From Citreicoccus inhibens (GTDB lineage: Bacteria > Myxococcota > Myxococcia > Myxococcales > Myxococcaceae): 64,000 nt of DNA. Numbering within the stretch: the stretch's first letter is position 1; each line of letters begins with the position of its first letter. The notes beneath the pieces are model-generated. The model was not told where the DNA came from. It was given only the letters and a program-made list of their open reading frames with translations, and made no database searches. The DNA is taken from NCBI RefSeq assembly GCF_019039035.1, contig NZ_JAHNZT010000005.1:310001-374000 (forward strand), read 5' to 3'. The translations under genes and the position numbers were made by a program. This document shows positions 11,089 through 25,689 of the stretch, one piece after another.

Positions 11089-11294
11089 ACCCGCCGTGCG
11101 CCGCCACGGTCCGTGGGGCCTCAGCCACGCGCCTGGATGCGGGCGTGGCTGGGTGACCTCGGTCCGTGCGGTCCGGGACTCACCTGGCACGAGCGGCCCG
11201 CCGGGAGTCAGTTGGCAGACGGCTTGAAATGGGCGACGGTGCTGCCCCACGCTGTCCGTTCGACGACGCTCCTGTCGCCCTTTTGCCTACCTGG

Positions 11295-12206
11295 ATGAGC
11301 CCCGCGATGCTTCCTGTCCTCCTCGCCGTGCTCCTGTCGCAAGCCGCGCCCGAGGCCCCTTCTCGTCAGCACGGTGTGCCCATTGGCAAGGGCAAGACCT
11401 TGCCCACCGTCCGTCTGTCCGCTCCGTCTGGAGGCTGGACGGTGGACCGGATGATGTTGGTGGAGGGCACGCTCAGCGACACCACCATCGACCCCGTGGT
11501 CGTCTCCATCAACGGCGACCGCTACTTGATGCGCACGAACAACGGGCGCTTCAGCCGCAAGTTCCCCGCGGCCAGCGGCAAGAACGTCGTCACGGTGATG
11601 GCGACGAATCAGGCCGGCACGGCGCGCACGCAGGCCACCAGCTACGCGCAGGTCCCCTCGGTGCCGCTCAAGGCCATCCTCACGAGCGACACGGATGGCG
11701 TGTACACGGACCTGCACATCTACGAGCCCACGGACAAGAGCGAGTCGGGCAGCACGCTCGACGTGAAGACGATGGCCCACGTGTACTGGGCCAACACGGC
11801 GAGCCCGTCCGGCGGCACCTTCTTCCTCAACGAGCAGGGCGGTGACTTCGATCAGCCCGCCTACGGCCCGTACCTCTACGTCCACCGCGCGCCGCCCAAG
11901 GGCGTGTACCTCATCGCCACCAACTACTGGCCCAGCGGTGACAAGGCGCACACCGTGGCGACGCTGAACCTGGTCCTGTTCGAGGGCACGCCGCACGAGA
12001 TTCGCCGCATGGTGCGCATTCCGTTGGCCACGCCCGGCACCACCCGTGTGCTCGCGTGGGTGAACATCCTGGGCGACGGCCAGGCGGAGACCTACGTGCC
12101 CTCGCAGGACCCCAAGCCCCAGGGCTCCGGCTGGCCCACCAACCTGGATGCGGCGCTCAAGGCGATCCAGGCGAACGGCGACTCCGGTGGCGAGGGCGAC
12201 TACTGA
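11295..12206 (+). CDS. yfaP: YfaP-like secreted protein (DUF2135), first gene of alpha-2-macroglobulin operon
   Basis: A 303-residue exported protein; the start at 11295 gives signal peptide [21 protein letters not shown], and Met at 11307 is an alternative. Residues about 45-135 look like a bacterial Ig/glucodextranase-B-type domain ([32 protein letters not shown]). Residues about 135-265 match the DUF2135 pattern of E. coli Yfa[15 protein letters not shown], then [24 protein letters not shown]. In E. coli the yfaP gene sits with yfaS, encoding a bacterial alpha-2-macroglobulin. The same five-gene set follows here on one strand. Its biochemical role is unknown; it may be an envelope scaffold or partner of YfaS. 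The 206-base upstream region has two imperfect -24/-12-like sequences but no convincing promoter. Confidence 0.85.
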
Positions 12207-12236
12207 GCCTGGGCCACCGCCCCGGTCGCGCTTCCC

Positions 12237-12863
12237 ATGCTTGCCCTGTCCCTGATGCTGTCCCTGGTGGCCACCGGACCGGTGGCCGTGGCGCCGAAGC
12301 CGGTGCTGCCGGCTCCGGTGGCGCCGACTTCGGTCGAGGCGCGGGCCGTGCGGCTGCGCCAGGAAGTGGCGCGCATCGCGCTGGCGCAGGTGCAGCGCAT
12401 GGACGCGACGTGGCACCCGGAGCAGCGGGACTGCGCGGGGCTGATTCGCTTCGCCTATCGCGTCGCCTACAAGCGCGTGGACGCGGGGCGCCTCGCCTCG
12501 CCGCTGTGGCGGGACACGCGGGGGGCGCCCGTGGACTTCGCGGACGCGGAGACGCTGCTGACGCACAGCTTCGGCCCTTTGGGCCGTGATGCCGCCGCGC
12601 GCGAGTCGCTGCGCACGGGCGACATCCTCGCGTTCCGCCAGGAGCACGACGCGGGCCCTGTGTTCCACCTCATGCTGGTGGTGCGCCCGGAGGACCGGGC
12701 CCACGCGCCCGCGCGCGTTGTCTATCACCCGGGCGAGCCGGGCGCCGTGGTGCGCACGGGCGTGCTCGACACCCTTTCCGCCGAGGCGCCCCTGGAGTGG
12801 CGCCCGGTGCCCCAGAACGCAGCGTTCCTGGGCTTCTTCCGATTCAAGGAGTGGATGCCATGA
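12237..12863 (+). CDS. yfaT: YfaT-like protein (DUF1175)
   Basis: A 208-residue exported protein with an N-terminal hydrophobic signal (MLALSLMLSLVATGPVAVA). The region WHPEQRDCAGLIRFAYRVAYK and later GDILAFRQEHDAGPVFHLMLVV match the DUF1175/YfaT family and resemble the Cys and His segments of NlpC/P60-type cysteine peptidases: DCAGLIRFAY for the nucleophile Cys and a downstream His in FHLMLV. That would make it a candidate peptidoglycan or peptide amidase, but this is inference from motif shape. It overlaps the next gene by ATGA, so translation is coupled. The 30-base gap to yfaP supports one transcript. Confidence 0.85.
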   Translation: MLALSLMLSLVATGPVAVAPKPVLPAPVAPTSVEARAVRLRQEVARIALAQVQRMDATWHPEQRDCAGLIRFAYRVAYKRVDAGRLASPLWRDTRGAPVDFADAETLLTHSFGPLGRDAAARESLRTGDILAFRQEHDAGPVFHLMLVVRPEDRAHAPARVVYHPGEPGAVVRTGVLDTLSAEAPLEWRPVPQNAAFLGFFRFKEWMP

Positions 12864-14491
12864 CATCTCCCACGAGCCCCTCGGGCACGCCGCCTCCCGC
12901 GGCGCCGCCCTCGGGTCCCCGCAAGGCCGGCGGACCTCCCAAGGGCGTGCTCATCGCCGCGGGCGTGGTGCTCATCGGCGCCCTGGTCGCGGGCGCCTTC
13001 GTGCTGGGCCGTCGCAGCGGGACGGGGATCGGCTCGGGCGCGTCGTTCTCGACGGGCGAGCGCCAGGGGCCGCCCACCGCGGGTGCCTCCGTGGAGGGCT
13101 TGCCGGAGGTCCCCGCCGAGGCGGTGAAGATGGACGTTCCGGGGAGCGCCGCACCCGCCGCGGTCTGGGTGGATGTGTACGCGCCCGGCAAGGTGCGCGA
13201 CGCGATGGTGCGCAACGCGTGGCTGAAGCAGACGCTCGCGCAGCCCGTGGGCAAGGGCTTCATCGGCGGGTGGGCGGCCTTCTTCGGCACGACCGGCGAG
13301 GACTTGAAGGCGGACTTCAAGGGCGCCGTGCTGGATGTGGTGGCGGGCCGGCTGTTGGACGTGCCCTTCCGGGCGGTGTGGTTCAGCGGCGATGCGCGCG
13401 CGGGCACTCCGGCGTTCATCCTGCCGCGCCCGGACTCGGCCTCCACGTCGGCGTGGCAGGCGTTGGACAAGGTGGCGCGCCGCAGCGAGATGACCGCGGA
13501 GGGGTGCCCGGGGGGGGAGGGTCAGGCGCCCGCGGGGGGCTTCCACCTGTCGCGCTGGCTGGTGGCGGAGCAGACGCTGTGGGCGGCGCGGTCCGAGGAC
13601 CGGTTGGTGCTCGCGCGGCACCCGGTGGTGGTGCTCCAGGGCCTGTGCACGGGGCTTCCCAAGCTGGACGGGGACTCGGGCGTGGACGTGGAGCTGGGGT
13701 TCGACCCCAAGTCGTACGGCCGCGAGGCGCAGCTGCTCGGCCACGTGTTGGGCCTGGGCGAGCACACGCGCCTCCAGTTCGCGGTGGAGGGTGACCGGCT
13801 GGTGGGCAAGGGCATCGCGGGCGAGCTGATGGACGGGCCCGCGCGGCTGGACAGCGCGCCCCTGTCGGATGACCTGCTGCGCCTGATTCCCGAGGACGCG
13901 CCGGTGCTGCTGACGCTCCAGCTCAAGCTGCCCGCGTCCATGGAGCCCGACGCGCTCAAGGACTTCTGGAAGGTGGAGGGCGGCGGCAAGGGCCCCACCG
14001 TCACGCGGCAGGTCGCGGTGGTGTGGACGCCGCGCGGGGACGCGTCGCTGCCCATGGCGCTGTCGTTGCTCTGGGGGCGCAAGGAGGACGCGCCCGCGCT
14101 GGAGAAGCTCTTCACGGGGGGCTCGCACACGCTTCAGCGCGCCACGTTGTGCAACCACGTGGCGCTGGCCAGCACGGCGGAGGAGCTGGAGCGCCTGCGC
14201 CGCGCCTGCGAGGGCAAGAGCCCCAACCTGCTCAACGCCGCGGGCCCGGTGGTCGCGGGTCTGCGGACGCCCGCGTCCGTGTCCCTGGGCGTCAACCTGG
14301 GACGGCTGCTCAGCGGCCTGACGCGAGATGGCTATGCATCCGAGGTGCGCGCGGGCCGCGACGCGCCTCTTCCCAAGGCCGTGCCGCCCGAAATCGAGGC
14401 GGCCCGCCGTGACTTGGAGTCGCTCCCGTACCTGGGCCTTCACGGCACGGTGAAGGGCGACGCGCTGGTTCCTGGAGGTTTCGGGTCATGA
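12860..14491 (+). CDS. yfaA: YfaA-like membrane-anchored protein (DUF2138)
   Basis: ATG at 12860 overlaps the yfaT stop and has AAGGAG upstream; the longer frame from 12797 is a shadow of yfaT. The 543-residue protein has a Pro-rich cytoplasmic N-terminus, one transmembrane helix at about residues 28-50 (GVLIAAGVVLIGALVAGAFVLG) and a large periplasmic part. Blocks such as ALSLLWGRKEDAPALEKLF and SVSLGVNLGRLL fit DUF2138, which occurs next to yfaS-type genes in other proteobacteria. No catalytic motif is visible, so an adaptor or assembly role for the macroglobulin is the best guess. The stop overlaps the yfaS start (ATGA). Confidence 0.8.
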   Translation: MTSPTSPSGTPPPAAPPSGPRKAGGPPKGVLIAAGVVLIGALVAGAFVLGRRSGTGIGSGASFSTGERQGPPTAGASVEGLPEVPAEAVKMDVPGSAAPAAVWVDVYAPGKVRDAMVRNAWLKQTLAQPVGKGFIGGWAAFFGTTGEDLKADFKGAVLDVVAGRLLDVPFRAVWFSGDARAGTPAFILPRPDSASTSAWQALDKVARRSEMTAEGCPGGEGQAPAGGFHLSRWLVAEQTLWAARSEDRLVLARHPVVVLQGLCTGLPKLDGDSGVDVELGFDPKSYGREAQLLGHVLGLGEHTRLQFAVEGDRLVGKGIAGELMDGPARLDSAPLSDDLLRLIPEDAPVLLTLQLKLPASMEPDALKDFWKVEGGGKGPTVTRQVAVVWTPRGDASLPMALSLLWGRKEDAPALEKLFTGGSHTLQRATLCNHVALASTAEELERLRRACEGKSPNLLNAAGPVVAGLRTPASVSLGVNLGRLLSGLTRDGYASEVRAGRDAPLPKAVPPEIEAARRDLESLPYLGLHGTVKGDALVPGGFGS

Positions 14492-17400
14492 AGATTGCTC
14501 ATCGCATCGTGGCGCTCGTCGCGCTCGCGCTGTCCGGCGTGGCCGCGGCCAAGCCCCTCTACATCACCGTGCCGCGCTCCTATGGCAGCCAGGAGCCGGT
14601 GGGCGTGGACGTGGCCTTCGAGGACAAGGGTCCCGTGGAGCTGCGCGTCCTCAAGCCGGAGAACGTGGACGCGTTCATCCGCGCGCAGACGGACCTGCGG
14701 CGCGCGTATCAGGCGCCGCCCACCCTGGTGAACCCGGGCCGCGCGCTCAGCCGAGGCCTCAACGCGGTGCACTCGCCGGGGCGGTGGCTGCTCAACTCGA
14801 TGTCGCTGCCCATCCGCGAGGACCTCATCGGCGTGCTGCCGCCGGCGCCGGCGGCCTCGTCCTCGGGCGAGCAGCTCGCGAAGGTGTCCGAGGGGCCGGA
14901 GAAGCTGGTGGGCACGCCTCCGGGCTTCTCCGTGGTGCGCAGCCAGTGGCTGAACCTGGACCTGGGTGGGTCGGAGCGGGACTTCAACGTCCCCGGCTTC
15001 GACACGAGCGGCTACAGCGGCGGCTTCCAGGAGCGCCGCGTGGTGCTCGCGCCGCTGCCGCCCGGGACCTACGTCCTCCAACTCGTGCAGGGGCGGGTGG
15101 AGGGGCAGGTGGTGCTCGTGGTCAGCGACCTGTCCGTGCAGCTCAAGCAGACGGATGGACAGGTGCTGGTGCGCGTGGCGGGGCGGGACCAGAAGCCGCG
15201 CGAGGGCGCGCACGTGCAGGTGTACCTGTCGAAGGGCAAGGGGCCCGCGGGCACGACGGACGCGAAGGGTGAGGTGACGCTGGCGGTGGACGAGCCGCGC
15301 CTCATCGCCACCGCGACGGTGGACGCGGACACGGCCATCGTGGACACGGACTTCTACTCCGCGCTGGCGGTGGCGCCGGACGTGTTCATCTACAGCGACC
15401 GGCCCATCTACAAGCCGGGCAACGAGGTGAAGTTCCGCGGGCTCGTGCGGCAGCCGGACACCTTCCTGGCGCGCCTGTTCACGCCGAAGAAGCGCGACGT
15501 GCTGGTGAAGCTGGTGTCCCAGGAGGGACGCGCGCTCACCACGCGCGCGACGGTGGACGAGTTCGGCGCGTTCAACGGCACGCTGAAGGTGCCGGAGGAC
15601 CTGGGCACGGGGGTGCTGCGCGTGGAGGCGGAGCTCGACACGCATCCGTACCAGGGCGAGGCCCGGGTGCAGGACTACGTGAAGCCCACGTTCTATCTGG
15701 AGGTGGAGCCCGACTCGGAGACGGTGGTGCCCGGCAAGACGCTGCGCGCGAAGGTGCACGCGCGCCGCTACGCGGGCGGCATCCCGGCGGGCGCGAAGTA
15801 CGAGGTGTTCCTCTACCGCAGCCTGCTGGATGCGCCGGCGTGGGTGGATGACGCGGGCAAGGGCGGGCAGGGCAGCGCGGTGACGTACGGCACCGCCTCC
15901 ACCACGGAGGGCAAGCTGAGCGTCCCCGAGCGCCTGTACTCGTCGGTCGCGGAGCGCAGCGCCACGGAGGACCCGTGGTCCAGCGCGAGCGCGTTCGACG
16001 CGAGCGGTGACGCGTCCATCGAGATCGCCGTCCCCGAGCTGAAGCCGGGCGAGGAGCGCCTGCCGTACCGCTACACGCTGACCGTGCGCGCGCGGGATGA
16101 CCAGGAGACGTTCGCCAACGCCACTGCGGCCTTCTTCCTGTCCAAGGTGGAGGTGCTGGGCACGGCGCGCTACTCGGAGCCGGTGGTGTCCAAGGGGGGC
16201 GAGGCGATGCTGTCGATGCGCGCCACCACGCTGTCGGGCAAGGCCTATGGCACCACGCAGGGCGAGGTGGAGTTCGTGCTGCGGCGCGCGGACGGCAAGG
16301 AGAAGAGCCTGGGCAAGCGCTCGTTCACCACGGCGGCGGACGGGACGCATCGGGAGAAGGTGCCCACGGGAGACGTGGGCGCGGTGCTGGCGCGCGTGAC
16401 GTTGAAGGACAAGCGGGGCGAGGCGTGGACGGGCGAGGAGTCCTTGCTCGTCATCGGCGCCGAGGACGAGCCGGTGGCGCAGGTTCCCAACCTCACGCTG
16501 GCGTCGCTGTCGGGCGCGCTGGAGCCGGGGGACACGGCTCGGCTGGTGGCGCTGCTGCCAGATGGCTGGGGTCCGGCTGGACGGGACGCGGGCTCGGTGT
16601 GGGTGACGCTGACGGGCGCGGGGCTCTATGGCACGCAGCTCGTGTCGCTCAAGGGCCGCACGCTGGTGCACGCCTTCGACGTGGAGAAGCGCTTCGGCAG
16701 CGCGGTGTATGCGTCCGTGGCGTATCCCACGGCCTCGGGCCGCTGGGAGGAGCGCACCGTGGCGTTCCGCGTGGTGCCTCGCGAGCGCACGCTCACCGTG
16801 ACGGTGCAGCCGCAGCGCGCGGAGACGGCGCCGCTGAGTGACCAGGCGCTCGAGCTGCGCGTCACCGATAGCGAGGGCCGGGGCGTGGTGGCGCAGGTGT
16901 CCGTGGGCGTGGTGGACAAGGCGGTGTACGCCATCCAGAGCGAGTTCCGGCCCAAGGTGCTGGACTTCTTCTACCCGCCCGCGCGCAACAACGTCTCGAA
17001 CTTCTACTCGTCCGAGTTCCAGGGCTACGGCTACGGCGAGGCGCTGGCGCGCAAGCTGTCCGGGCTGCCGGACCACGCCTTCGCGTCCATCAAGCCGCCC
17101 AGCCGTCAGGCGCGCGACCTGGAGAAGGACACCGCGCACTGGGACCCCGCGGTGGTGACGGACCGGGATGGCCGCGCGACGGTGCGCTTCACGCTGCCGT
17201 CCAACCAGACGCTGTGGGTGATTACGGCGGTGGCCGCGGACACGTCCGGTCGCTTCGGCGAGGGCACGTCCGAGTTCGCCACGCGGGGCGGCATCAACCT
17301 GTACGCCGCGCTGCCGCAGTTCCTCCGTGAGGGCGATGAGGCGCTCGCGTCCGTGCGGCTGTCGGCAGGGGAGAAGGCCGAGGGCAGCCAGGTGCTCGAC

Positions 17401-19209
17401 GTGAAGCTGGCGTCGGCGGGGGCGCTCAAGGCGGACCAGTCGCAGGCCAAGGTGGAGCTGGCCAAGGGCGGCGAGAAGGTGGTGCCGGTGACGCTGAAGG
17501 CCTCGGCCACGGGCGCCGCGCAGCTCGCGGTGGCGGTGACGGGTGGCAGGGACCCGCTGCGGGACACGAAGGGCTTCGACGTGCGGCCGGCCGCGGTGGA
17601 GGACGCGGTGAAGGTGAGCGCGTGGGGCGGTGGCGCGCTGGCGCTCCCCGCGGCGGACTCGGCGACGCTGACGAGCGTGCAGCTCGTGCTCCAACCCTCG
17701 CTGGTGGACGCGGCGCTCACCAACGTGCGGGAGCTGCTCACATACCCATACGGATGCCTGGAGCAGCTTGTCTCCACCACGGTGCCCAACGTGGCGCTGT
17801 ACCAGGTGCTCCAGAAGGCGGGCACGCTGGACAAGCTGGATACCGACACGCAGGCGCTCCTGGCGGAGGCGCGCAGCCGCGCCGTGCAGGGCACCGCGCG
17901 CATCCTCGCGCTGGAGGTCCGAGGTGGCGGCTTCACGTGGTTTGGCGGCTACAGCGAGCCGAGCCTGCCGCTCACCCTCATCGCGATGGATGGTCTGGCG
18001 TATGCGGTGGACGCGGGGCTGGCGGATCGCGATGACCCGCGCATCACCGAGACCGCGACGTGGCTCGACGGACAGCAGAACCTGCCGCCGGAGTACGAGG
18101 CCACGCGCGCGTACGTGCTGGCGCGGTTGCAGGGGCCGCGGCAGGCGGCGCGGGTCCGTGCGCTCGTGCAGGGCGCACAGCCGGGCGACCTGTACTCGCT
18201 GGCCCTCGCGGTGCTCGCGGCGGAGAAGGCGGGCGTGATGAAGGAGGCGGCCCTCCAGGACCGCATCAACGCGCTGGTGGCTCGGAGCACGGAGGGCTTC
18301 GCCACCCTGGCCAGCTTGAAGCAGGGCCAGGAGCCGCAGCTGTCCGAGGCGTTCTTCCGCTATCCGCTGCGTCGCGTGGGCCTGACGGCCATCACCGCGC
18401 ACGCGGCCTCGTTCGGCACACTGGATGTCACCCGTGCTCGCAAGCGCGTCCTGGAATTGCTGAGCGAGCCGGACCTGTCGACGTTCGACCGGAGCACCGC
18501 GCTGCTGCACTCGCTGTGGCTCATCGAGCGCGACGCGAAGGCGTTCCGTGGGATGTCGCCGCCGGAGGTGAAGGGCACGAAGGGCGCGGTGAAGTTCGCG
18601 CCGCGCGGCATGGGGCTGGTGGCCACGCTGGCGCCGGGGACGCGCACGGTGGACGTGGGCGGCTTCGATGGCGTGGCCACGCTGCAGGCGTCCGCGCTGA
18701 CGCCGCTCTCCTCGGTTCAGGCGAAGTCCGAGGGCATGTCCATCCAGCGCGCGTACTACGTGCTTCGCGAGGGTGGGAAGGTGAAGCTGGAGTCCGGCAC
18801 CCCCGTGTCGCAGGGCGAGGAGGTCTACGTCGAGCTGACGCTGGATGCGCGCGGGGAGAACCGGGCGCGGTCGGCGTACTACGTGGTGGAGGACGCGGTG
18901 CCCGCGGGCTTCGTGCCGCTCCAGGAGGACAAGGCCTTCCGCGGTCCTCCGCACGCGCTGCCGCTGGCGGCCGAGGCGCTCAAGCGCCGGCAGCTCAGCC
19001 CGGAGCGGGCCACCTTCTTCTTCGAGGAGCCCGCGTGGTGGAGCAACACGCCGCGCGTCATCGGCTACGTGATGCGCGCGCAGTTCGCCGGCACCTTCTC
19101 GGCGCCGCCCGCCACCATCGAGGACATGTACGCGGCGCGCATCCACGGCCGCACGGCCGCGGACGTGCTGAAGGTTGCGCCCTCGCAGAAGCCCCAGGGC
19201 GACCTGTAG
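14488..19209 (+). CDS. yfaS: YfaS-type bacterial alpha-2-macroglobulin with thioester
   Basis: A 1573-residue periplasmic protein close in length to E. coli YfaS (about 1530). It has a signal peptide (cleavage near GVAAAKP) and no lipobox. The order of macroglobulin parts can be followed: MG2 domain around YSDRPIYKPGNEVKFRG (about 305-325), an MG7/A2M segment around THWDPAVVTDRDGRA-like sequence (written DTAHWDPAVVTDRDG, about 880), and the thioester motif GCLEQ with Cys1090. After cleavage of a bait region by a protease, the activated thioester would bond covalently to the attacker, trapping it. The bait region should lie between MG6 and MG7, near the Ser/Tyr-rich stretch at about residues 830-875. 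It is coupled to yfaA by ATGA, and yfaQ follows after three bases. Confidence 0.93.
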   Translation: MKIAHRIVALVALALSGVAAAKPLYITVPRSYGSQEPVGVDVAFEDKGPVELRVLKPENVDAFIRAQTDLRRAYQAPPTLVNPGRALSRGLNAVHSPGRWLLNSMSLPIREDLIGVLPPAPAASSSGEQLAKVSEGPEKLVGTPPGFSVVRSQWLNLDLGGSERDFNVPGFDTSGYSGGFQERRVVLAPLPPGTYVLQLVQGRVEGQVVLVVSDLSVQLKQTDGQVLVRVAGRDQKPREGAHVQVYLSKGKGPAGTTDAKGEVTLAVDEPRLIATATVDADTAIVDTDFYSALAVAPDVFIYSDRPIYKPGNEVKFRGLVRQPDTFLARLFTPKKRDVLVKLVSQEGRALTTRATVDEFGAFNGTLKVPEDLGTGVLRVEAELDTHPYQGEARVQDYVKPTFYLEVEPDSETVVPGKTLRAKVHARRYAGGIPAGAKYEVFLYRSLLDAPAWVDDAGKGGQGSAVTYGTASTTEGKLSVPERLYSSVAERSATEDPWSSASAFDASGDASIEIAVPELKPGEERLPYRYTLTVRARDDQETFANATAAFFLSKVEVLGTARYSEPVVSKGGEAMLSMRATTLSGKAYGTTQGEVEFVLRRADGKEKSLGKRSFTTAADGTHREKVPTGDVGAVLARVTLKDKRGEAWTGEESLLVIGAEDEPVAQVPNLTLASLSGALEPGDTARLVALLPDGWGPAGRDAGSVWVTLTGAGLYGTQLVSLKGRTLVHAFDVEKRFGSAVYASVAYPTASGRWEERTVAFRVVPRERTLTVTVQPQRAETAPLSDQALELRVTDSEGRGVVAQVSVGVVDKAVYAIQSEFRPKVLDFFYPPARNNVSNFYSSEFQGYGYGEALARKLSGLPDHAFASIKPPSRQARDLEKDTAHWDPAVVTDRDGRATVRFTLPSNQTLWVITAVAADTSGRFGEGTSEFATRGGINLYAALPQFLREGDEALASVRLSAGEKAEGSQVLDVKLASAGALKADQSQAKVELAKGGEKVVPVTLKASATGAAQLAVAVTGGRDPLRDTKGFDVRPAAVEDAVKVSAWGGGALALPAADSATLTSVQLVLQPSLVDAALTNVRELLTYPYGCLEQLVSTTVPNVALYQVLQKAGTLDKLDTDTQALLAEARSRAVQGTARILALEVRGGGFTWFGGYSEPSLPLTLIAMDGLAYAVDAGLADRDDPRITETATWLDGQQNLPPEYEATRAYVLARLQGPRQAARVRALVQGAQPGDLYSLALAVLAAEKAGVMKEAALQDRINALVARSTEGFATLASLKQGQEPQLSEAFFRYPLRRVGLTAITAHAASFGTLDVTRARKRVLELLSEPDLSTFDRSTALLHSLWLIERDAKAFRGMSPPEVKGTKGAVKFAPRGMGLVATLAPGTRTVDVGGFDGVATLQASALTPLSSVQAKSEGMSIQRAYYVLREGGKVKLESGTPVSQGEEVYVELTLDARGENRARSAYYVVEDAVPAGFVPLQEDKAFRGPPHALPLAAEALKRRQLSPERATFFFEEPAWWSNTPRVIGYVMRAQFAGTFSAPPATIEDMYAARIHGRTAADVLKVAPSQKPQGDL

Positions 19210-19212
19210 TTC

Positions 19213-21429
19213 ATGGGGTGGGCCGCCGTGGTCGCCACGCTGCTGGCGGCCTCTCCCACCTTCGTCACGCGGGGCGACGTGACGCCCGAGGCGGACCTTC
19301 GCCGCGAGGCGGAGGCCGCGTGGGCGTCCGTGGAGGCGGTGTACGTCGCCCAGGCCGGGAGCGCGCCCACGCGGGCTCCCGGCACGGTGGTGCTCCAGAA
19401 GGGCAGCGTGCTGTCCCCCGAGCGCAACGCGCAGGGGCGGCCGGGATGGGTGGAGCTGCGGCAGAACACGCCGGGCGTGTTGGACGAGCGGCTGCGGGTG
19501 GCGCTGCGCCACGAGCTGGCCCATCAGTTCCTGTGGTGGGCCTGTCCCGCGTCCAGTGAGGACCGGCTCTTCCACGAGGCGTTCGCGCTCATGACGAGCG
19601 GCGAGCTGGCCGCGTGGCGCGAGGCCCCGTACCAGTCGCTGTCGCGTGCGGCGACGGAGGTGGCGCTCGCGCCGTCGGTGGACACGCTCCGGGCTCGGCG
19701 CGGGCTGGCCCGAATCCTGGGAGAGAGCCCGGGCTTCCCCGCGTCGCTGACGCGACGGCTGCGCCAGTGTCAGGACGGCGCACGGTGGCTGGTGCCGCTG
19801 TCCTTGGATGAGCTGGCGGACGTGGCGGTGCGCGAGGCCGCGCCCGCGACGTTGGTGCTCAGTCGGCACTCGGGCGAGGTGTTGCTGGCGGAGGGCGACG
19901 TGCGGCGTGCGCTGCCGTATGGCTCGACATTGAAGCCCTTCGTGTACGCGGCGTCGCGTGAGCAGCCGGTGTTGCCGCGGCGAGAGGGCGTGCAGGAGTG
20001 GGCGTGTGGGCCGGGCCTGCCCGACAAGGTGGATGCGCGCACGGCGCTCCTTCGCTCGTGCAATGGGTACTTCCTGGATTGGGAGGCGGCGGGCTCGGCG
20101 CCTCGGTCATTCGGGGCCTGGGGGCCGGTGCTGTCCGCGGTGGGGCTCGCGGGTGACGCGGTGGACATGGCGGAGGCCATCGGGCTGCGCTCCACGCGGG
20201 CGGTGTCCCCATGGGGAATGGCGCAGGCCTACCGGCTGCTCGCGGAGGCGCGTCCGGACGTGATGGCGCTCCTGGCGGACAACGCTGCGCGAGGGACATT
20301 GAGCGACTTGCCCGCGTCCTCGGCGCTGGTGGGGGTGGCGACCAAGACGGGCACGGTGCGCGACGCGGCGAGCCGCCCGCAGTTCGGGTGGATTGTCGCG
20401 GTGGATGGGGACGTGGTGGCGGTGCTCCTGCGGCCTGGAAAGATGCCTCGGCAGTTCGCGGACGAGGTCCCGAAGGTGCTGGCGCGGGGGAAGGGGCGTG
20501 GAGGGGCGGAGGCGGCGCGCGTACAGGTGCTGGGGTTGGTGGCCCCGACTGTCGTCGAGGCGCGGTGCCCGGGACTTGGGTTCGCGCTGGAGGCCGGAGT
20601 TCCTCGCGCGGTGCCGGGAGCGTTCTCTGCGCTGGCGGGGTTGGTGGCGAAGGGACCCGCGGTGTGTCTGGGGATGCCGTGGCGCGTGCGTTTCCCCGAT
20701 GGAGCGGAGGAGGGGCGAGATTACGCGGGGGTGTTCACGTGGGACGTGCCGCCAGCGTATCGACCGCCGCCGGGAGTGCCGACGACGCCTCGGGCCTTGA
20801 AGGCGCGGCGGGGCTCGGACTTCGTCTTTCGCACCACGCGGCTCCAGTACGTGGCGGGCGTGGTGACGGCGGAGGACGCGCTCTTGACGGGCGAGGCGCG
20901 CGTGGCGCTGGCGCGCGTGGTGGCGCACAACGAGCGGCACAGTCGGCATCCGGACCGGGCCGTCTGTGACACGACGCACTGTCAGGCCTTTCGAGGCACG
21001 GTGCGGGCGAAGAGGGAAGAGACGCGCGCGCTGTCGCTGCCGGCGCTGCCCTGGGATGCGTGGTTGCCATTCTCCCAGGGAGGTGATGAGCCCTGGAAGG
21101 AGGAGCGCCCGCGCGAGCAGGTGGAGGCGGTGTTGGGGAAGGGGTTGGTGTCCCTGCGCTTCGATGCGGGGCGTGTGCTGTATCTGCGCGGCGTGGTGGA
21201 GGCGGGGACGCCGTACGAGGACGCACGCACGCTGCCCTGCGAGTTGTTGCGCTCGGCGCTCAAGTTGCTGGCGTGTCCACGGCAGGCCTCGTTCGACGGC
21301 GAGCGCGTGGTGTTCGAGGGGCAGGGCAAGGGCCACGGCGAGGGACTGGACGTGGAGGCAGCCAAATCCAGTGGCCTGTCCAGCGATGCGCTGCTCCAGC
21401 GCGCCTACGGGAAGCCCGTGCCCCGCTGA
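19213..21429 (+). CDS. yfaQ: YfaQ-like protein (DUF2300) with peptidase-like, transpeptidase-like and SpoIID-like parts
   Basis: A 738-residue exported protein ending the yfa operon. Three parts can be read. First, residues 100-104 form HELAH, a zinc-peptidase HExxH motif, followed by EAF at about 125. Second, Ser238-TLK241 in YGSTLKPFVYA, Ser282-C-N284 and Lys378-T-G380 match the SxxK, SxN and KTG motifs of penicillin-binding transpeptidases, and GSTLKPF is the form seen in PBP1C. Third, residues about 540-730 resemble SpoIID/LytB: Glu561 in the ALxxxAVxAR-like helix, CDTTHCQAFRG, and the terminal GKGHGEGLDVEAA, close to the GHGVGLSQ block. E. coli YfaQ is placed in DUF2300. The combination predicts action on peptidoglycan next to the macroglobulin. 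Domain assignment is my own reading. Confidence 0.8.
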   Translation: MGWAAVVATLLAASPTFVTRGDVTPEADLRREAEAAWASVEAVYVAQAGSAPTRAPGTVVLQKGSVLSPERNAQGRPGWVELRQNTPGVLDERLRVALRHELAHQFLWWACPASSEDRLFHEAFALMTSGELAAWREAPYQSLSRAATEVALAPSVDTLRARRGLARILGESPGFPASLTRRLRQCQDGARWLVPLSLDELADVAVREAAPATLVLSRHSGEVLLAEGDVRRALPYGSTLKPFVYAASREQPVLPRREGVQEWACGPGLPDKVDARTALLRSCNGYFLDWEAAGSAPRSFGAWGPVLSAVGLAGDAVDMAEAIGLRSTRAVSPWGMAQAYRLLAEARPDVMALLADNAARGTLSDLPASSALVGVATKTGTVRDAASRPQFGWIVAVDGDVVAVLLRPGKMPRQFADEVPKVLARGKGRGGAEAARVQVLGLVAPTVVEARCPGLGFALEAGVPRAVPGAFSALAGLVAKGPAVCLGMPWRVRFPDGAEEGRDYAGVFTWDVPPAYRPPPGVPTTPRALKARRGSDFVFRTTRLQYVAGVVTAEDALLTGEARVALARVVAHNERHSRHPDRAVCDTTHCQAFRGTVRAKREETRALSLPALPWDAWLPFSQGGDEPWKEERPREQVEAVLGKGLVSLRFDAGRVLYLRGVVEAGTPYEDARTLPCELLRSALKLLACPRQASFDGERVVFEGQGKGHGEGLDVEAAKSSGLSSDALLQRAYGKPVPR

Positions 21430-21436
21430 CGGGGCG

Positions 21437-22780
21437 TCAGGCGGTTCTGCCCACGGTGAGTCGGCGCATCATGGCTCGCACGGTGGCGCCTGGGTCCGCG
21501 CTGCGGCCTCGGCCCACTTCGCCCAGCAGGGCCGCGGCTCGCACGGCGTTTCCTCCCGCGCGCTCCAGGGCCACCGACAAGGCCATTCGCTCGAGTGACT
21601 CGACTTCCGCTCGCAGGTTGAAGGTGCCCGCGTCCATGGCCCGTGACAGGGCGCTCGCGTCCAGACAGCCGCGCGCCGTGTGCTCCAGTCCTCGCTTCAA
21701 CACGCGGCGCGGCAGGTCCGACGGGAGGACCTCCGTGCCCGCCCGCTTGTAGACGAGCACCTCGAACAGCACGTTGCGCAGCTCTCGGATGTTGCCGGGC
21801 CAGGGATACGCCTGGAGCGCGGCCAGTGCCTCGGGCGTGACGTGCAGCGGTCCCTGCGGCGCGGTGGGCTCCTCGCGCTGGAAGCGCGCGATGAAGTGCT
21901 CCGCCAACGCGGGCAGGTCCTCCGCGCGCTCGCGCAGCGGGGGCAGTTGAATGCTCACGATGGCCAGTCGCTCGTACAGGTCCGCCCCAAACGCCCCCTT
22001 CGCGATGAGCTCGCGCAAGTCTCGATTGGTCGCCGCGAGGATGCGGAAGTCCACCTTGCGCGGCTCGGACTCTCCCAGCCGCGTCACCACCCGGTCCTCC
22101 AACACGCGCAACAACTTCATCTGGAGCGACAGCGGCGTGTCATCGATTTCATCCAGGAACACCGTGCCGCGCTCGGCCGCCATGAGCTGCCCGTCGAAGC
22201 CGTGCGTCGCACCCGAGAACGCGCCCTTCGCGTAGCCGAACAGCTCTCCCTCCATCAGCTCATTGGGAATGGCGGCGCAGTTGATGGGGACGAAGCGGCC
22301 CTCGCGACGCGCGCTCCAAACGTGCAGCAAGCGCGCGGTCACCTCCTTGCCCGTCCCCGTCTCCCCGGTAATCAACACGGGCATCGACGTGCGTGCCGCG
22401 CGCGCCATCTGTTCCAGCACGGCACGCGCCGCCGCGCTCCGTGCCACGAAGGTGCTCGCCTCGGTGGGCGCGGTCTCTGGCGCCGCCAGCTCCGCGAGCC
22501 GCGCCATCAAGCGCTCAGTCCCCGCGGGCCCACCCAGCCACACGGCGTCGTATGCGCCCGCCAGCGCGGCCTCGGTGGAGGCCTGCGGTGAGAGCTTCGC
22601 TCGCGACACCCAGACCCACGGCCGTCCACCTGGGGGCGCGGAGGGAACGCGTGCCCCGCCCGCCGTGTGCAGCACGACCATGTCGGCCGTGCCCCTCGTG
22701 ACGAGCCGATGTCCCGCCGACGTCAGCCGCGCGGACAGCGACGACGGAGGGGGCGGGCCCTCCCACCGGATGTTGGCCAT
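21437..22780 (-). CDS. Sigma-54-dependent activator with degenerate N-terminal domain
   Basis: A 447-residue enhancer-binding protein. Residues about 1-110 form an alpha/beta domain of receiver length without the expected phospho-acceptor context, so it is probably not phosphorylated in the standard way. The AAA+ domain (about 115-345) has Walker A GETGTGKE, a GAFSGA loop (the GAFTGA sigma-54 contact with Thr to Ser) and Walker B GTVFLDEID. A Fis-type helix-turn-helix is at the end (LERAGGNAVRAAALLGEVGRG). It is divergent from the SPFH gene, whose upstream region holds a -24/-12 promoter and tandem repeats that overlap the start of this gene; it is the obvious candidate activator, possibly autoregulated. 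It converges on yfaQ with a 7-base gap. Confidence 0.9.
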   Translation of the reverse strand: MANIRWEGPPPPSSLSARLTSAGHRLVTRGTADMVVLHTAGGARVPSAPPGGRPWVWVSRAKLSPQASTEAALAGAYDAVWLGGPAGTERLMARLAELAAPETAPTEASTFVARSAAARAVLEQMARAARTSMPVLITGETGTGKEVTARLLHVWSARREGRFVPINCAAIPNELMEGELFGYAKGAFSGATHGFDGQLMAAERGTVFLDEIDDTPLSLQMKLLRVLEDRVVTRLGESEPRKVDFRILAATNRDLRELIAKGAFGADLYERLAIVSIQLPPLRERAEDLPALAEHFIARFQREEPTAPQGPLHVTPEALAALQAYPWPGNIRELRNVLFEVLVYKRAGTEVLPSDLPRRVLKRGLEHTARGCLDASALSRAMDAGTFNLRAEVESLERMALSVALERAGGNAVRAAALLGEVGRGRSADPGATVRAMMRRLTVGRTA

Positions 22781-22817: not shown

Positions 22818-22874
22818 TCGGTTTCGTCGCGACGCCCCGCCACCCGCTCCAAGTGATTCCAGCGGGTTGGCGTG

Positions 22875-22890
22875 TGGCCTGGTGGATGCA
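22875..22890 (+). promoter_or_regulatory. Candidate sigma-54 (-24/-12) promoter of the SPFH gene
   Basis: TGGCCTGGTGGATGCA has GG at 22876-22877 and GC at 22888-22889, exactly ten bases apart, with TGGC and TGCA matching the consensus arms. Transcription would begin near 22900 and give a 28-base leader carrying AAAGGAAGG before ATG 22929. Confidence 0.55.
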
Positions 22891-22928
22891 GTGCCGAGCA
22901 GGCGACTTCGAAAGGAAGGTCACATCGG

Positions 22929-24881
22929 ATGTTGGACTTCATGGCGTCCCACGAGGTGCTGCTCGGCGTGGGCGTGGGCGTGCCCGTCGTGCTGCTCTGG
23001 CTCGTGTTCAAGGTGGGCTGCGTCGTCATTGGAGAGGGGGAGTCCGGACTGGTCATCAAGCGCTTCGGCGCGGCGCTGCCGCCTGGGCGCCTCATCGCGC
23101 GCGGGGGCGAGGCGGGGTATCAGGCGCGACTCTTGTCCCCGGGTTGGCACCTTGGGCTGTGGCGCTGGCGCTACAAGGTGAAGCGCGTGCCGCTCATCGT
23201 GGTGCCACCCGGCGAGGTCGCGCTGGTGGTGGCCAATGACGGTCAGCCCCTGCCCGGCGAGCGGCTCCTGGGGTGCGCGGTGGAGTGCGACGGCTTCCAG
23301 GACGCCGAGGCGTTCCTCGACCATGGCGGTGAGCGCGGCCGTCAGCTCTCCATCCTCACGGCGGGCACGTACCGCATCAACCCCGCGCTGTTCGACGTGG
23401 TGACCGTGGCCAATGCCAAGCGGCACGGCGTGGACCCCACCGAGCTGCGCGTGTTCCACGTGCCCCCGGACCGCGTGGGCATCGTGACGGCGAACGACGG
23501 TCGGCCGGTGCCGGCGGGCGACATGGCCGGCCCCATCATCCCGGACCACGACAGCTTCCAGCGTCCGCAGGCGTTCATCGACGCGGGCGGCTGCCGAGGC
23601 TTGCAGGAGGAGGTGCTGCTCGCGGGCGCGTGGAACCTCAACCCGTGGTTCGTGAAGGTGGAGCTGATTCCGCTCACCGAGATTCCCATCGGCTACGTGG
23701 GCGTCGTGGTGTCCTATGTGGGGCGCGAGCACCTGGACGTGTCCGGTGACGCGTTCACGCACGGGGACCTGGTGGAGCGCGGGCGCAAGGGTGTCTGGGT
23801 GGAGCCGCTCTTGCCGGGCAAGCACCCGCTCAACACGCGCGTGATGAAGGTGGAGCTGGTGCCCACGACGAACATCGTCCTCAACTGGGCCAACCGCACG
23901 GAGGCGCACCACTACGACTCGCAGCTGTCCAGCATCCTGGTGCGCAGCAAGGACGGCTTCGGGTTCAGCCTGGACGTGTCGCAAATCATCCACATTGGCG
24001 CCAAGAACGCGCCGCGCGTGATTTCGCGCGTGGGCAGCATGCAGAACCTGGTGGACCACGTGCTCCAGCCGGTGGTGGGCAACTACTTCCGCAACTCGGC
24101 GCAGGAGGTGACGGTGCTGGACTTCCTGTCGGCGCGGAGCGCTCGGCAGCAGCAGGCCTATGACGCCATCCAGGTGGCGTTGCAGGAGTACGACGTCGAG
24201 TGCATCGACACGCTCATTGGCGACATCGTGCCGCCCGCGGAGCTGATGAAGACGCAGACGGACCGGAAGATCGCCGAGGAGCTTCAGCGCACGTACGAGG
24301 TGCAGCGCGAGGCGGAGGTGAAGCGGCAGGACCTCCAGCGCGAGCTGGCCATCGCCAACATCCAGTCGGAGGTGGTGCGCAGCGAGCAGCAGGTGCGCAT
24401 CTGCGAGCAGAACGCGCGGGCGCAGGTGGAGACGGCCAAGGGCGAGGCCGCCTCCGTGCGCGCCCGCTCGGAAGCCGAGGCCGAGTCGCTCAAGCGCGTG
24501 GGGCTGGCGAAAGCGGAGGCCGAGGCCGAGCAGGTGGGCCGCGTGGGCGCCGCGCGGGCGCAGGCCGAGGCCGAGGCCGTGCGTCAGGTGGGCCTGGCGA
24601 AGGCGGAGGCGTATCGCATGGGACAGGAGGCGCTGGGCGCGGCGGCGTACACCGCGATGCAGATCGCCACGGTGCTGGCCGAGCACGGCGTGAAGCTCGT
24701 GCCGGACATCGCGGTGGGCGGTGGCCAGGGCGGGCAGTCCGGGTTGGCCGAGGCGATGCTCGCGCGCATGTTCGCGGCGACCCAGGGCCTGCCGATGTCC
24801 GCGAAGGAGTCGGCGCGGAGTGGCGCGCCGGCTGCTCGTCCCCCGGCCGGGTCGGCGGGTGAGCCTCGCAAGGCGCTGTAA
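22929..24881 (+). CDS. SPFH/flotillin-like membrane protein with four N-terminal beta-repeats
   Basis: ATG at 22929 has GGAAGG upstream (650 residues). A membrane segment spans about residues 11-36. Four related units follow at about 33-87, 91-158, 178-246 and 252-308; each contains a GxVxxV(V/T) strand and ends with L-x-(P/A)-G-x(3-4)-(L/N)-x(4-6)-K/D-V-x(3)-P (for example SPGWHLGLWRWRYKVKRVP and LAGAWNLNPWFVKVELIP). An SPFH domain covers about 310-480, then a long Glu/Ala/Arg coiled coil (QREAEVKRQDLQRELAIAN onward, about 480-590). The plan of beta-repeats, SPFH shoulder and cap helix resembles the major vault protein and large flotillins. It likely forms an oligomeric membrane microdomain or cage. 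Expression is probably sigma-54 dependent. Confidence 0.85.
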   Translation: MLDFMASHEVLLGVGVGVPVVLLWLVFKVGCVVIGEGESGLVIKRFGAALPPGRLIARGGEAGYQARLLSPGWHLGLWRWRYKVKRVPLIVVPPGEVALVVANDGQPLPGERLLGCAVECDGFQDAEAFLDHGGERGRQLSILTAGTYRINPALFDVVTVANAKRHGVDPTELRVFHVPPDRVGIVTANDGRPVPAGDMAGPIIPDHDSFQRPQAFIDAGGCRGLQEEVLLAGAWNLNPWFVKVELIPLTEIPIGYVGVVVSYVGREHLDVSGDAFTHGDLVERGRKGVWVEPLLPGKHPLNTRVMKVELVPTTNIVLNWANRTEAHHYDSQLSSILVRSKDGFGFSLDVSQIIHIGAKNAPRVISRVGSMQNLVDHVLQPVVGNYFRNSAQEVTVLDFLSARSARQQQAYDAIQVALQEYDVECIDTLIGDIVPPAELMKTQTDRKIAEELQRTYEVQREAEVKRQDLQRELAIANIQSEVVRSEQQVRICEQNARAQVETAKGEAASVRARSEAEAESLKRVGLAKAEAEAEQVGRVGAARAQAEAEAVRQVGLAKAEAYRMGQEALGAAAYTAMQIATVLAEHGVKLVPDIAVGGGQGGQSGLAEAMLARMFAATQGLPMSAKESARSGAPAARPPAGSAGEPRKAL

Positions 24882-24907
24882 CGACGCGGTGCGGGGTTCG
24901 GGCGTGT

Positions 24908-24940
24908 CTCCCCACGGGCGCTCCGTCGCCCCGTGGGGAG
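24908..24940 (+). terminator. GC-rich stem-loop after the SPFH gene
   Basis: CTCCCCACGGG and CCCGTGGGGAG form a perfect 11-base stem around an 11-base loop, 27 bases after the SPFH stop. There is no T-run, so it may be a processing or factor-dependent end. Confidence 0.55.
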
Positions 24941-25020
24941 GGGCGGGCAGGCGGGCTCGGATTGCCGGTGCTCGTCAGGCGTTCGCAGCTTCCCTCGGCG
25001 TCACTCGATGGGAGGCAGAC

Positions 25021-25689
25021 ATGCGCAAGAACACGTGGGGCAAGCGAGCCGTCCTGGCCACGATGATGACGGGGGCGTTCGGCTTCGGCGTCGTCGCGCA
25101 CGCGGACGACAAGATGGCGAAGCAGGACAAGCAAGTGGGCGAAGCCGCCGCCAAGCGGACGAAGTACGTGGGGCGGCTGGCCCTCTTCAACTCCAAGCAG
25201 ATCGCCCTGGCGCAATTGGCCGAGCAACAGGCGACGGATCCGCAAGTGAAGGCCTTCGCCAGCCAGCTGCTCCAGGACCACCAGAGCAATCAAGCGGACC
25301 TGAAGGCCTGGGCCCAGAGCAAGCAGATCGAAGTCGACACCGTGGACCTCTCCGGCAATCAGGAGGGCGTCGGTGGCTCCGGCATGCAGCAGGGCTACAA
25401 CGACAAGATGAAGAATGTCGGCGAGAAGCTGGGCAAGCAGATCGATGAGGACCGCAAGGAAATCAACGAGCTGAAGGCCAAGCAGGGCAAGGAGTTCGAC
25501 AAGGCCTTCTTGTCGCGCATCGCGGACGACCAGAAGGACGGGCGCGAGCTCTTGAACGACGGTCGTCGTGAGTACAAGAACGACGCCACGTTCCTCGCGC
25601 TGCTCAACAAGACCGAGACCGTGGTGGACAGCCACGAGAGCACGGCGAAGCAGCTCGAGAAGCAGATGAAGTCGTCGAAGATGCCGTAG
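25021..25689 (+). CDS. DUF4142 periplasmic protein
   Basis: ATG at 25021 follows GGGAGGC; the longer frame from 24721 is a shadow of the SPFH gene. The 222-residue product has a signal peptide (cleavage after GVVAHA). The mature part is a four-helix, ferritin-like bundle pattern with the DUF4142 hallmarks: FNSKQIALAQLAEQQATDPQVKAFASQLLQDHQ and, near the end, DDQKDGRELLNDGRREYKNDATFLALLNKT. DUF4142 proteins are often found among stress and envelope genes; no metal-binding EXXH pair is evident here. It is Lys/Gln-rich and less GC-extreme than its neighbours. It likely has its own promoter after the stem-loop at 24908. Confidence 0.9.
   Translation: MRKNTWGKRAVLATMMTGAFGFGVVAHADDKMAKQDKQVGEAAAKRTKYVGRLALFNSKQIALAQLAEQQATDPQVKAFASQLLQDHQSNQADLKAWAQSKQIEVDTVDLSGNQEGVGGSGMQQGYNDKMKNVGEKLGKQIDEDRKEINELKAKQGKEFDKAFLSRIADDQKDGRELLNDGRREYKNDATFLALLNKTETVVDSHESTAKQLEKQMKSSKMP

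Follow-up and report, generated by a model that had tools for sequence, protein, structure and literature searches.

A YfaQ-like protein encoded in a macroglobulin operon of Citreicoccus inhibens is probably a divergent three-part cell wall enzyme

Results

The window analyzed in this study, a stretch of 64,000 nucleotides from the myxobacterium Citreicoccus inhibens (contig NZ_JAHNZT010000005.1, positions 310,001 to 374,000), includes an open reading frame for a YfaQ-like, three-domain protein of 738 amino acids (19213..21429; coordinates are those of the window and refer to the forward strand unless indicated). The gene is the last of a five-gene operon equivalent to yfaATSQP of Escherichia coli and to the mag operon of Pseudomonas. 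Sequence comparisons and structural models indicate that its product is probably an active, divergent wall enzyme of the macroglobulin operon, composed of a gluzincin-like metallopeptidase domain, a penicillin-binding protein (PBP)-type transpeptidase domain, and a SpoIID-like domain. As far as the literature and database searches reach, three of its features are new: the zinc-peptidase-like third part, the intact active sites, and the hybrid nature of an operon of the mag type that encodes a thioester macroglobulin.

A sequence-only reading of this region had proposed an ordered series of motifs, and all of them were found at the residues assigned: HELAH (100-104), S238-T-L-K241, S282-C-N284, K378-T-G380, C585-DTTHC-Q591, and G707-HGEG-L712; the E561 that it named also exists. 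None of 20,000 composition-preserving shuffles of the protein held the ordered set, and among the single motifs HExxH alone appeared in 0.6% of the shuffles and S..K in 59%. The model of the whole protein had a mean pLDDT of 89.4 and a pTM of 0.84. The protein passed none of the curated Pfam or NCBIfam cut-offs, and SpoIID was present below its cut-off. The best single-sequence matches of the whole protein were 4′-phosphopantetheinyl transferases (NCBIfam, E 0.001; Protein Data Bank (PDB), E 0.005), which were rejected as chance because they were centered on the THCQ stretch and were absent from the profile searches. Matches to FG-GAP and S1 were likewise rejected as chance. Since no 19-residue window reached a hydropathy of 1.6, the protein lacks a membrane segment by this measure. 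Its N terminus shows moderate hydrophobicity and lacks a basic start, and the start of some relatives is more clearly signal-like; export is plausible from the sequence.

YfaQ matches were detected in 59 of 117 genomes drawn from the source order and, by a profile search across the source phylum, in 87 of 195 genomes, a few of them to SpoIID only. A Bdellovibrionales relative was the basis for a further survey, in whose phylum 6 of 240 genomes had a match. The scan of species genomes produced 46 loci, 43 of which were aligned with the window protein (alignment A2, 44 rows); one locus with in-frame stops (L089) and two with the SpoIID domain only (L099 and L100) were left out. The rows span Myxococcota and Bdellovibrionota with identities down to 28%, and the residue counts given below exclude rows gapped at the site. 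After thinning of close relatives, alignments A4 and A5 used 22 of 41 and 21 of 40 available rows, respectively. The active-site residues had no real exception across the 44 rows. The probability of finding the catalytic columns in question among the invariant ones by chance was about 5.5e-7 for the transpeptidase, 2.7e-7 for HExxH, and 3e-6 for SpoIID, for columns picked after the motifs were already known. Four further Bdellovibrionota rows all kept HExxH, SxxK, SCN, KSG, and E554, while H589 and H579 were lost in two of them and GHG was replaced by GHE or GHD in three. Searches for further gammaproteobacterial relatives found none in viral contigs and, in plasmids, no more than one Citrobacter record and six of E. 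coli; plasmids had no match for the window protein.

Some loci depart from this arrangement. L095 and L096, from Myxococcaceae genomes, carry a stand-alone SpoIID-like part, with the other two domains absent and no macroglobulin match in the stretch examined. At L050, a second, partial SpoIID region of YfaQ lies in two pieces (11975-12675), at a distance of about 5 kb on the downstream side of the intact gene, and is probably a decayed duplicate. The record of L056 is titled Comamonas sp. KCTC 72670 and contains the myxobacterial operon in full, with a yfaQ of 72% identity; its label is probably wrong, since the contig coordinates of the gene are identical in a genome of the source order (G055).

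The C-terminal part (residues 434-738, 20512..21426) was identified by comparing the family profile with solved structures. At E ≤ 1 only SpoIID structures were matched in the PDB (4rwr, E 7.4e-6; 5i1t; 5txu), and with E ≤ 0.1 as the limit the Pfam SpoIID model matched 21 of 22 members, the strongest at 4.4e-6, as expected from the SpoIID-like nature proposed earlier for this part. The predicted catalytic glutamate, E554 (20872..20874), aligns with E101 of Clostridioides difficile SpoIID, and the predicted zinc ligands H579 (20947..20949) and C585, H589, and C590 of CDTTHCQ (585-591, 20965..20985) align with H134, C140, H145, and C146. All of them, as well as Q591, are present in 41 of 41 rows. 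The GHGEGL motif (707-712, 21331..21348) is the counterpart of GHGVGM in SpoIID, and GHGxG is found in 40 of 40 rows. The catalytic role of E101 and the roles of the four zinc ligands of the C. difficile enzyme are taken from PMC6221140, in which the E101A, C140A, and H145A variants were inactive in vitro. The sequence-only reading had chosen E561 as the catalytic residue. This position is kept in only 39 of 41 rows, and it is E554 instead that aligns with E101. The substrate of SpoIID is glycan stripped of peptides, and a chlamydial homologue also acts on sacculi (PMC6635528). Compared with SpoIID of C. difficile and Bacillus subtilis, the window version differs in being fused to two other domains, in having GHGEGL instead of GHGVGM, and in belonging to an operon without a sporulation context.

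The middle part (residues 206-433, 19828..20511) has a PBP-type transpeptidase fold in VIA comparisons, in which it reached a Z of 20.1 to B. subtilis PBP3 (7bn9; root-mean-square deviation 2.9, 209 residues aligned, 21% identity). The rows returned by VIA for the whole model were PBPs only, which does not in itself exclude other families. The three transpeptidase motifs are in the right order, so that the transpeptidase-like character ascribed to this region held. SxxK (S238-K241, 19924..19935), with the predicted acylated serine and general base, and SxN (S282-N284, 20056..20064) are found in 40 of 40 rows. In KTG (K378-G380, 20344..20352), the lysine is present in 40 of 41 rows, threonine or serine in 41 of 41, and glycine in 40 of 40; the sole exception at K378 is L095, a row without the transpeptidase domain. 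The profile aligns SxxK, SCN, and KTG onto those of C. difficile PBP3 (7rd0, E 0.05), and with the Pfam Transpeptidase model 14 of 21 members had a match of E ≤ 0.1, of which the best was 1.8e-4. When the profile was compared with PBPs of the same genome (three of eight own-genome proteins), PBP1C scored 1.8 bits and another PBP 0.2 bits.

The N-terminal part (residues 14-205, 19252..19827), modeled alone with a pLDDT of 92.0, carries the HELAH zinc and catalytic motif (100-104, 19510..19524; HExxH in 41 of 41 rows). Seventeen residues separate H104 from E122 (19576..19578), the predicted third zinc ligand, a role we infer from gluzincin chemistry. H100, E101, H104, and E122 are each present in 41 of 41 rows; thus, HExxH and the downstream glutamate of gluzincins are both in place. 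The best VIA match of the domain alone was the M1 aminopeptidase 1z1w, with 176 of 192 residues aligned and a Z of 10.0, a value that may be commonplace among helical models. Nearly all the top rows were of the M1, M9, or LTA4H type, with Z below the level set for helical models. Foldseek found no significant match for the domain alone (best E 0.055). The invariant HExxH and E122, together with the fold matches, make a gluzincin-like zinc peptidase likely, with the fold match itself no more than suggestive. An M48-like peptidase, the type foreseen in the sequence-only reading, was not specifically indicated, since the nearest folds were M1- and M9-type gluzincins.

The gene upstream of yfaQ (14488..19209) encodes a MagD/YfaS-like alpha-2-macroglobulin, with Pfam bMG10, MG2, A2M, BRD, and TED above their cut-offs, and only 3 bases separate its stop from the start of yfaQ. 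Of 40 relatives holding the N-terminal domain, 39 have a macroglobulin gene upstream in the same orientation, and the 40th starts at a contig end; this agrees with the proximity to a macroglobulin noted earlier. The macroglobulin has a CLEQ thioester sequence motif (residues 1090-1093, 17755..17766), and all 76 aligned loci showing the region (some counted twice), including one from Bdellovibrionales, have CxEQ. According to PMC5764988, type I macroglobulins have the thioester and are encoded beside PBP1c, and those of type II are without the thioester and often belong to a six-gene operon. The combination of mag-type partner genes and a CLEQ thioester sets the operon described here apart from the classical type II as well as from type I. 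By its sequence it is a mix of both, with a thioester macroglobulin inside an operon of a kind thought to lack it. The analogy drawn earlier with PBP1C and YfhM found support in the same genome, which holds a separate macroglobulin-PBP1C pair on another contig (C28; PBP1C TIGR02073, E 1.3e-240); a third macroglobulin is encoded on contig C11. A 1809-codon open frame antisense to the macroglobulin gene (14440-19869, reverse strand) is very likely a high-GC artefact.

The remaining operon genes precede the macroglobulin. MagF/YfaP (DUF2135 by Pfam) occupies 11166..12206, with a likelier start at the in-frame ATG at 11295. MagC/YfaT (DUF1175, E 2.6e-28; NlpC/P60-like) occupies 12237..12863; its profile matches the solved Pseudomonas aeruginosa MagC (7bk8) at 2.5e-51, and at E ≤ 0.5 the NLPC_P60 model matched 12 of 15 members. 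The protein encoded at 12860..14491 is termed MagB/YfaA-like from its operon position and its one N-terminal hydrophobic segment (residues ~26-50, maximum hydropathy 2.74) only; a Pfam search gave no match. A sigma-54 activator gene (21437-22780, reverse strand) converges on yfaQ at about 7 bases, and genes for a Band 7/SPFH protein (22872-24881) and a DUF4142 protein (24721-25689) lie downstream.

E. coli YfaQ (b2226) shares with the window protein the operon position and, by weak collinear profile matches, the succession of a transpeptidase-like and a SpoIID-like part. It retains SxxK and the SpoIID glutamate, has an HExxH, and with 27.0 bits scores above the Pfam SpoIID cut-off. In contrast to the window protein, it has 549 amino acids instead of 738, its HExxH (HEYLH, 520-524) is C-terminal rather than N-terminal, and it matches DUF2300. 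The window protein gave no match to the DUF2300 model (PF10062) at E ≤ 1, contrary to the membership assumed in the sequence-only reading; its DUF2300/YfaQ label therefore rests on operon position and distant two-domain homology with E. coli YfaQ. The view that DUF2300 is usually left unexplained is out of date for two of the parts, since E. coli YfaQ has been described as transpeptidase-like and SpoIID-like (PMC12282094, 2025). In the same work, which connects YfaQ with wall hydrolases, deletion of yfaQ led to wider cells and a profile resembling those of mepK, mepS, and nlpI; metallo-, HExxH, zinc, and macroglobulin do not occur in the main text. In the literature searched, DUF2300 was not mentioned, and macroglobulin and SpoIID appeared together in only one paper, a cyanobacterial proteome.

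A permutation of the zinc domain between the protein ends was considered and rejected. The 44-row N-domain profile gave the C-terminal parts of the E. coli and Citrobacter proteins -2.0 and -0.3 bits, respectively, scores no different from those of shuffled versions that kept HEYLH (within the range of 1,000 for each protein), and hhalign also found no match, so that a common origin of the N- and C-terminal HExxH parts is without sequence support. The single DUF2300 model matches two stretches of E. coli YfaQ (L053:2649-4298, reverse strand), residues ~84-205 in the transpeptidase-like part and 412-532 around HEYLH. The two stretches are mutually dissimilar in E. coli (Smith-Waterman score 27 versus a shuffle mean of 27) and not clearly similar in Citrobacter (37, under the 95% level of 39), and the DUF2300 family may mix two unrelated segments.

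Discussion

The interpretation we favor, with a probability of about 0.5, is that the window YfaQ is a secreted wall-editing partner of the macroglobulin, most likely editing or repairing the wall at damage sites that the macroglobulin guards. The five operon proteins would form a periplasmic complex resembling the Mag complex of Pseudomonas. When the wall is breached, the macroglobulin would trap the incoming enzyme, the SpoIID-like domain would trim glycan devoid of stem peptides, and the transpeptidase-type domain would trim or rejoin stem peptides. The gluzincin-like domain would most likely act on protein, perhaps on the macroglobulin itself, because loss of MagE (PA4488), the positional equivalent in P. 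aeruginosa, appears to stop processing of MagD. In favor of this interpretation are the fold matches, the conserved active-site residues, the macroglobulin gene upstream in 39 of 40 relatives, the protection conferred by magD against wall-targeting effectors, the need of MagD for MagE, the wider E. coli cells after yfaQ deletion, and the peptidoglycan binding of DUF1175/MagC. The same operon position, the match of MagC to YfaT, and the identity of MagD as the macroglobulin relate both systems, which differ in that MagD has no thioester (PMC5764988) while the window macroglobulin has CLEQ.

Several observations weigh against this interpretation. Catalytic activity of the window protein is a prediction from its sequence and models, and the protein itself scores below the Pfam cut-offs for both Transpeptidase (13.2 bits, cut-off 22.1) and SpoIID (18.1 bits, cut-off 23). 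Therefore, it was considered a divergent relative rather than a standard PBP member, and the term SpoIID-like was used. The motifs are conserved in the Myxococcota and Bdellovibrionota rows of alignment A2, but E. coli YfaQ and the 51%-identical Citrobacter protein have SCG for SxN and KTW for KTG, and CxxxHC and GHG are gone; the family can thus persist there without these motifs. MagE is likened to YfaQ by operon position only. According to PMC5764988, MagE is needed for the normal amount and processing of MagD, but a stable MagD-MagE complex was not seen by gel filtration, MagE is suggested to serve as a chaperone or in a signal-peptide role, and legend and text disagree on the mutants without the 100 kDa form. 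DUF1175/MagC, although it binds peptidoglycan, is termed inactive (PMC10318531).

The enterobacterial losses of SxN, KTG, the HC zinc pair, and GHG, and the description of DUF1175, from the same operon, as an inactive peptidoglycan binder, would make sense if the PBP-like and SpoIID-like domains had become a scaffold or sensor that binds peptidoglycan and positions the Mag complex but no longer catalyzes. We consider this possible but doubtful, since most of these residues are invariant in Myxococcota and Bdellovibrionota, which would be unexpected for mere binding modules. In the E. coli and Citrobacter lineage, the decay of the enzyme residues seems to accompany that of the thioester, as judged from the YfaQ motif losses, the GGVIN at the thioester position of the Citrobacter macroglobulin, and a MagD without thioester; the sample consists of two YfaQ proteins and one macroglobulin, plus MagD from PMC5764988. 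The apparent failure of MagD processing without MagE, the invariant HExxH and E122 set, and the position of yfaQ directly after the macroglobulin gene could also mean that the zinc domain cuts or matures the macroglobulin, with the other two domains serving only to dock it to the wall. That arrangement seems unlikely, given that it leaves the invariant SxxK/SxN/KTG and E554 sites unexplained, that the gluzincin fold match is suggestive only, and that a processed macroglobulin is known from P. aeruginosa MagD and not from myxobacteria.

BlaR1 and MecR1 (M56) have a gluzincin part followed by a penicillin-binding fold, and the BlaR1 zinc domain is in the membrane. The window protein repeats this succession of a zinc part and a PBP fold and differs in having no membrane segment by hydropathy. 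A speculative and rather improbable extension of this likeness is a soluble periplasmic damage switch, BlaR1-like but responding to wall damage, in which the PBP-fold and SpoIID-like domains would sense stems without crosslinks as well as denuded glycan, and the resulting binding or acylation would unleash the gluzincin-like domain to cut and arm the macroglobulin. If true, both macroglobulin operon types would share one rule, a PBP-fold partner coupling wall damage to protease trapping. The appearance of class D beta-lactamases (OXA-57) among the Foldseek matches could point to a function as a beta-lactam target, sensor, or hydrolase that has no relation to the macroglobulin. This is very improbable, since 39 of 40 relatives have the gene in association with the macroglobulin operon.

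The wall-editing role would bear on the mechanism of a defense system. The Mag/Yfa operon was recently shown to protect against wall-attacking toxins of the type VI secretion system (T6SS), and a chaperone function has been guessed for MagE. The protection by magD extends to the wall-targeting T6SS effectors VgrG3 and Tae1 and not to TseH or other effector classes (PMC12663445). The link between macroglobulins and PBP1c has been repeated as speculation (PMC7554673). The type I pair of PBP1C with YfhM/ECAM resembles the arrangement found here in that the gene for a PBP-fold protein adjoins that for a thioester macroglobulin. PBP1C carries a glycosyltransferase domain, in agreement with the NCBIfam matches of the PBP1C of this genome, and, unlike the window YfaQ, has no SpoIID or HExxH part. 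The myxobacterial operon suggests that a penicillin-binding-fold protein accompanies the macroglobulin in the two operon types known from bacteria. Since the myxobacterial version retains every predicted active site and the macroglobulin thioester, it is the form suited to direct activity tests. The vicinity of a trap gene and a wall-enzyme gene suggests that protease trapping and wall repair act as one defense unit.
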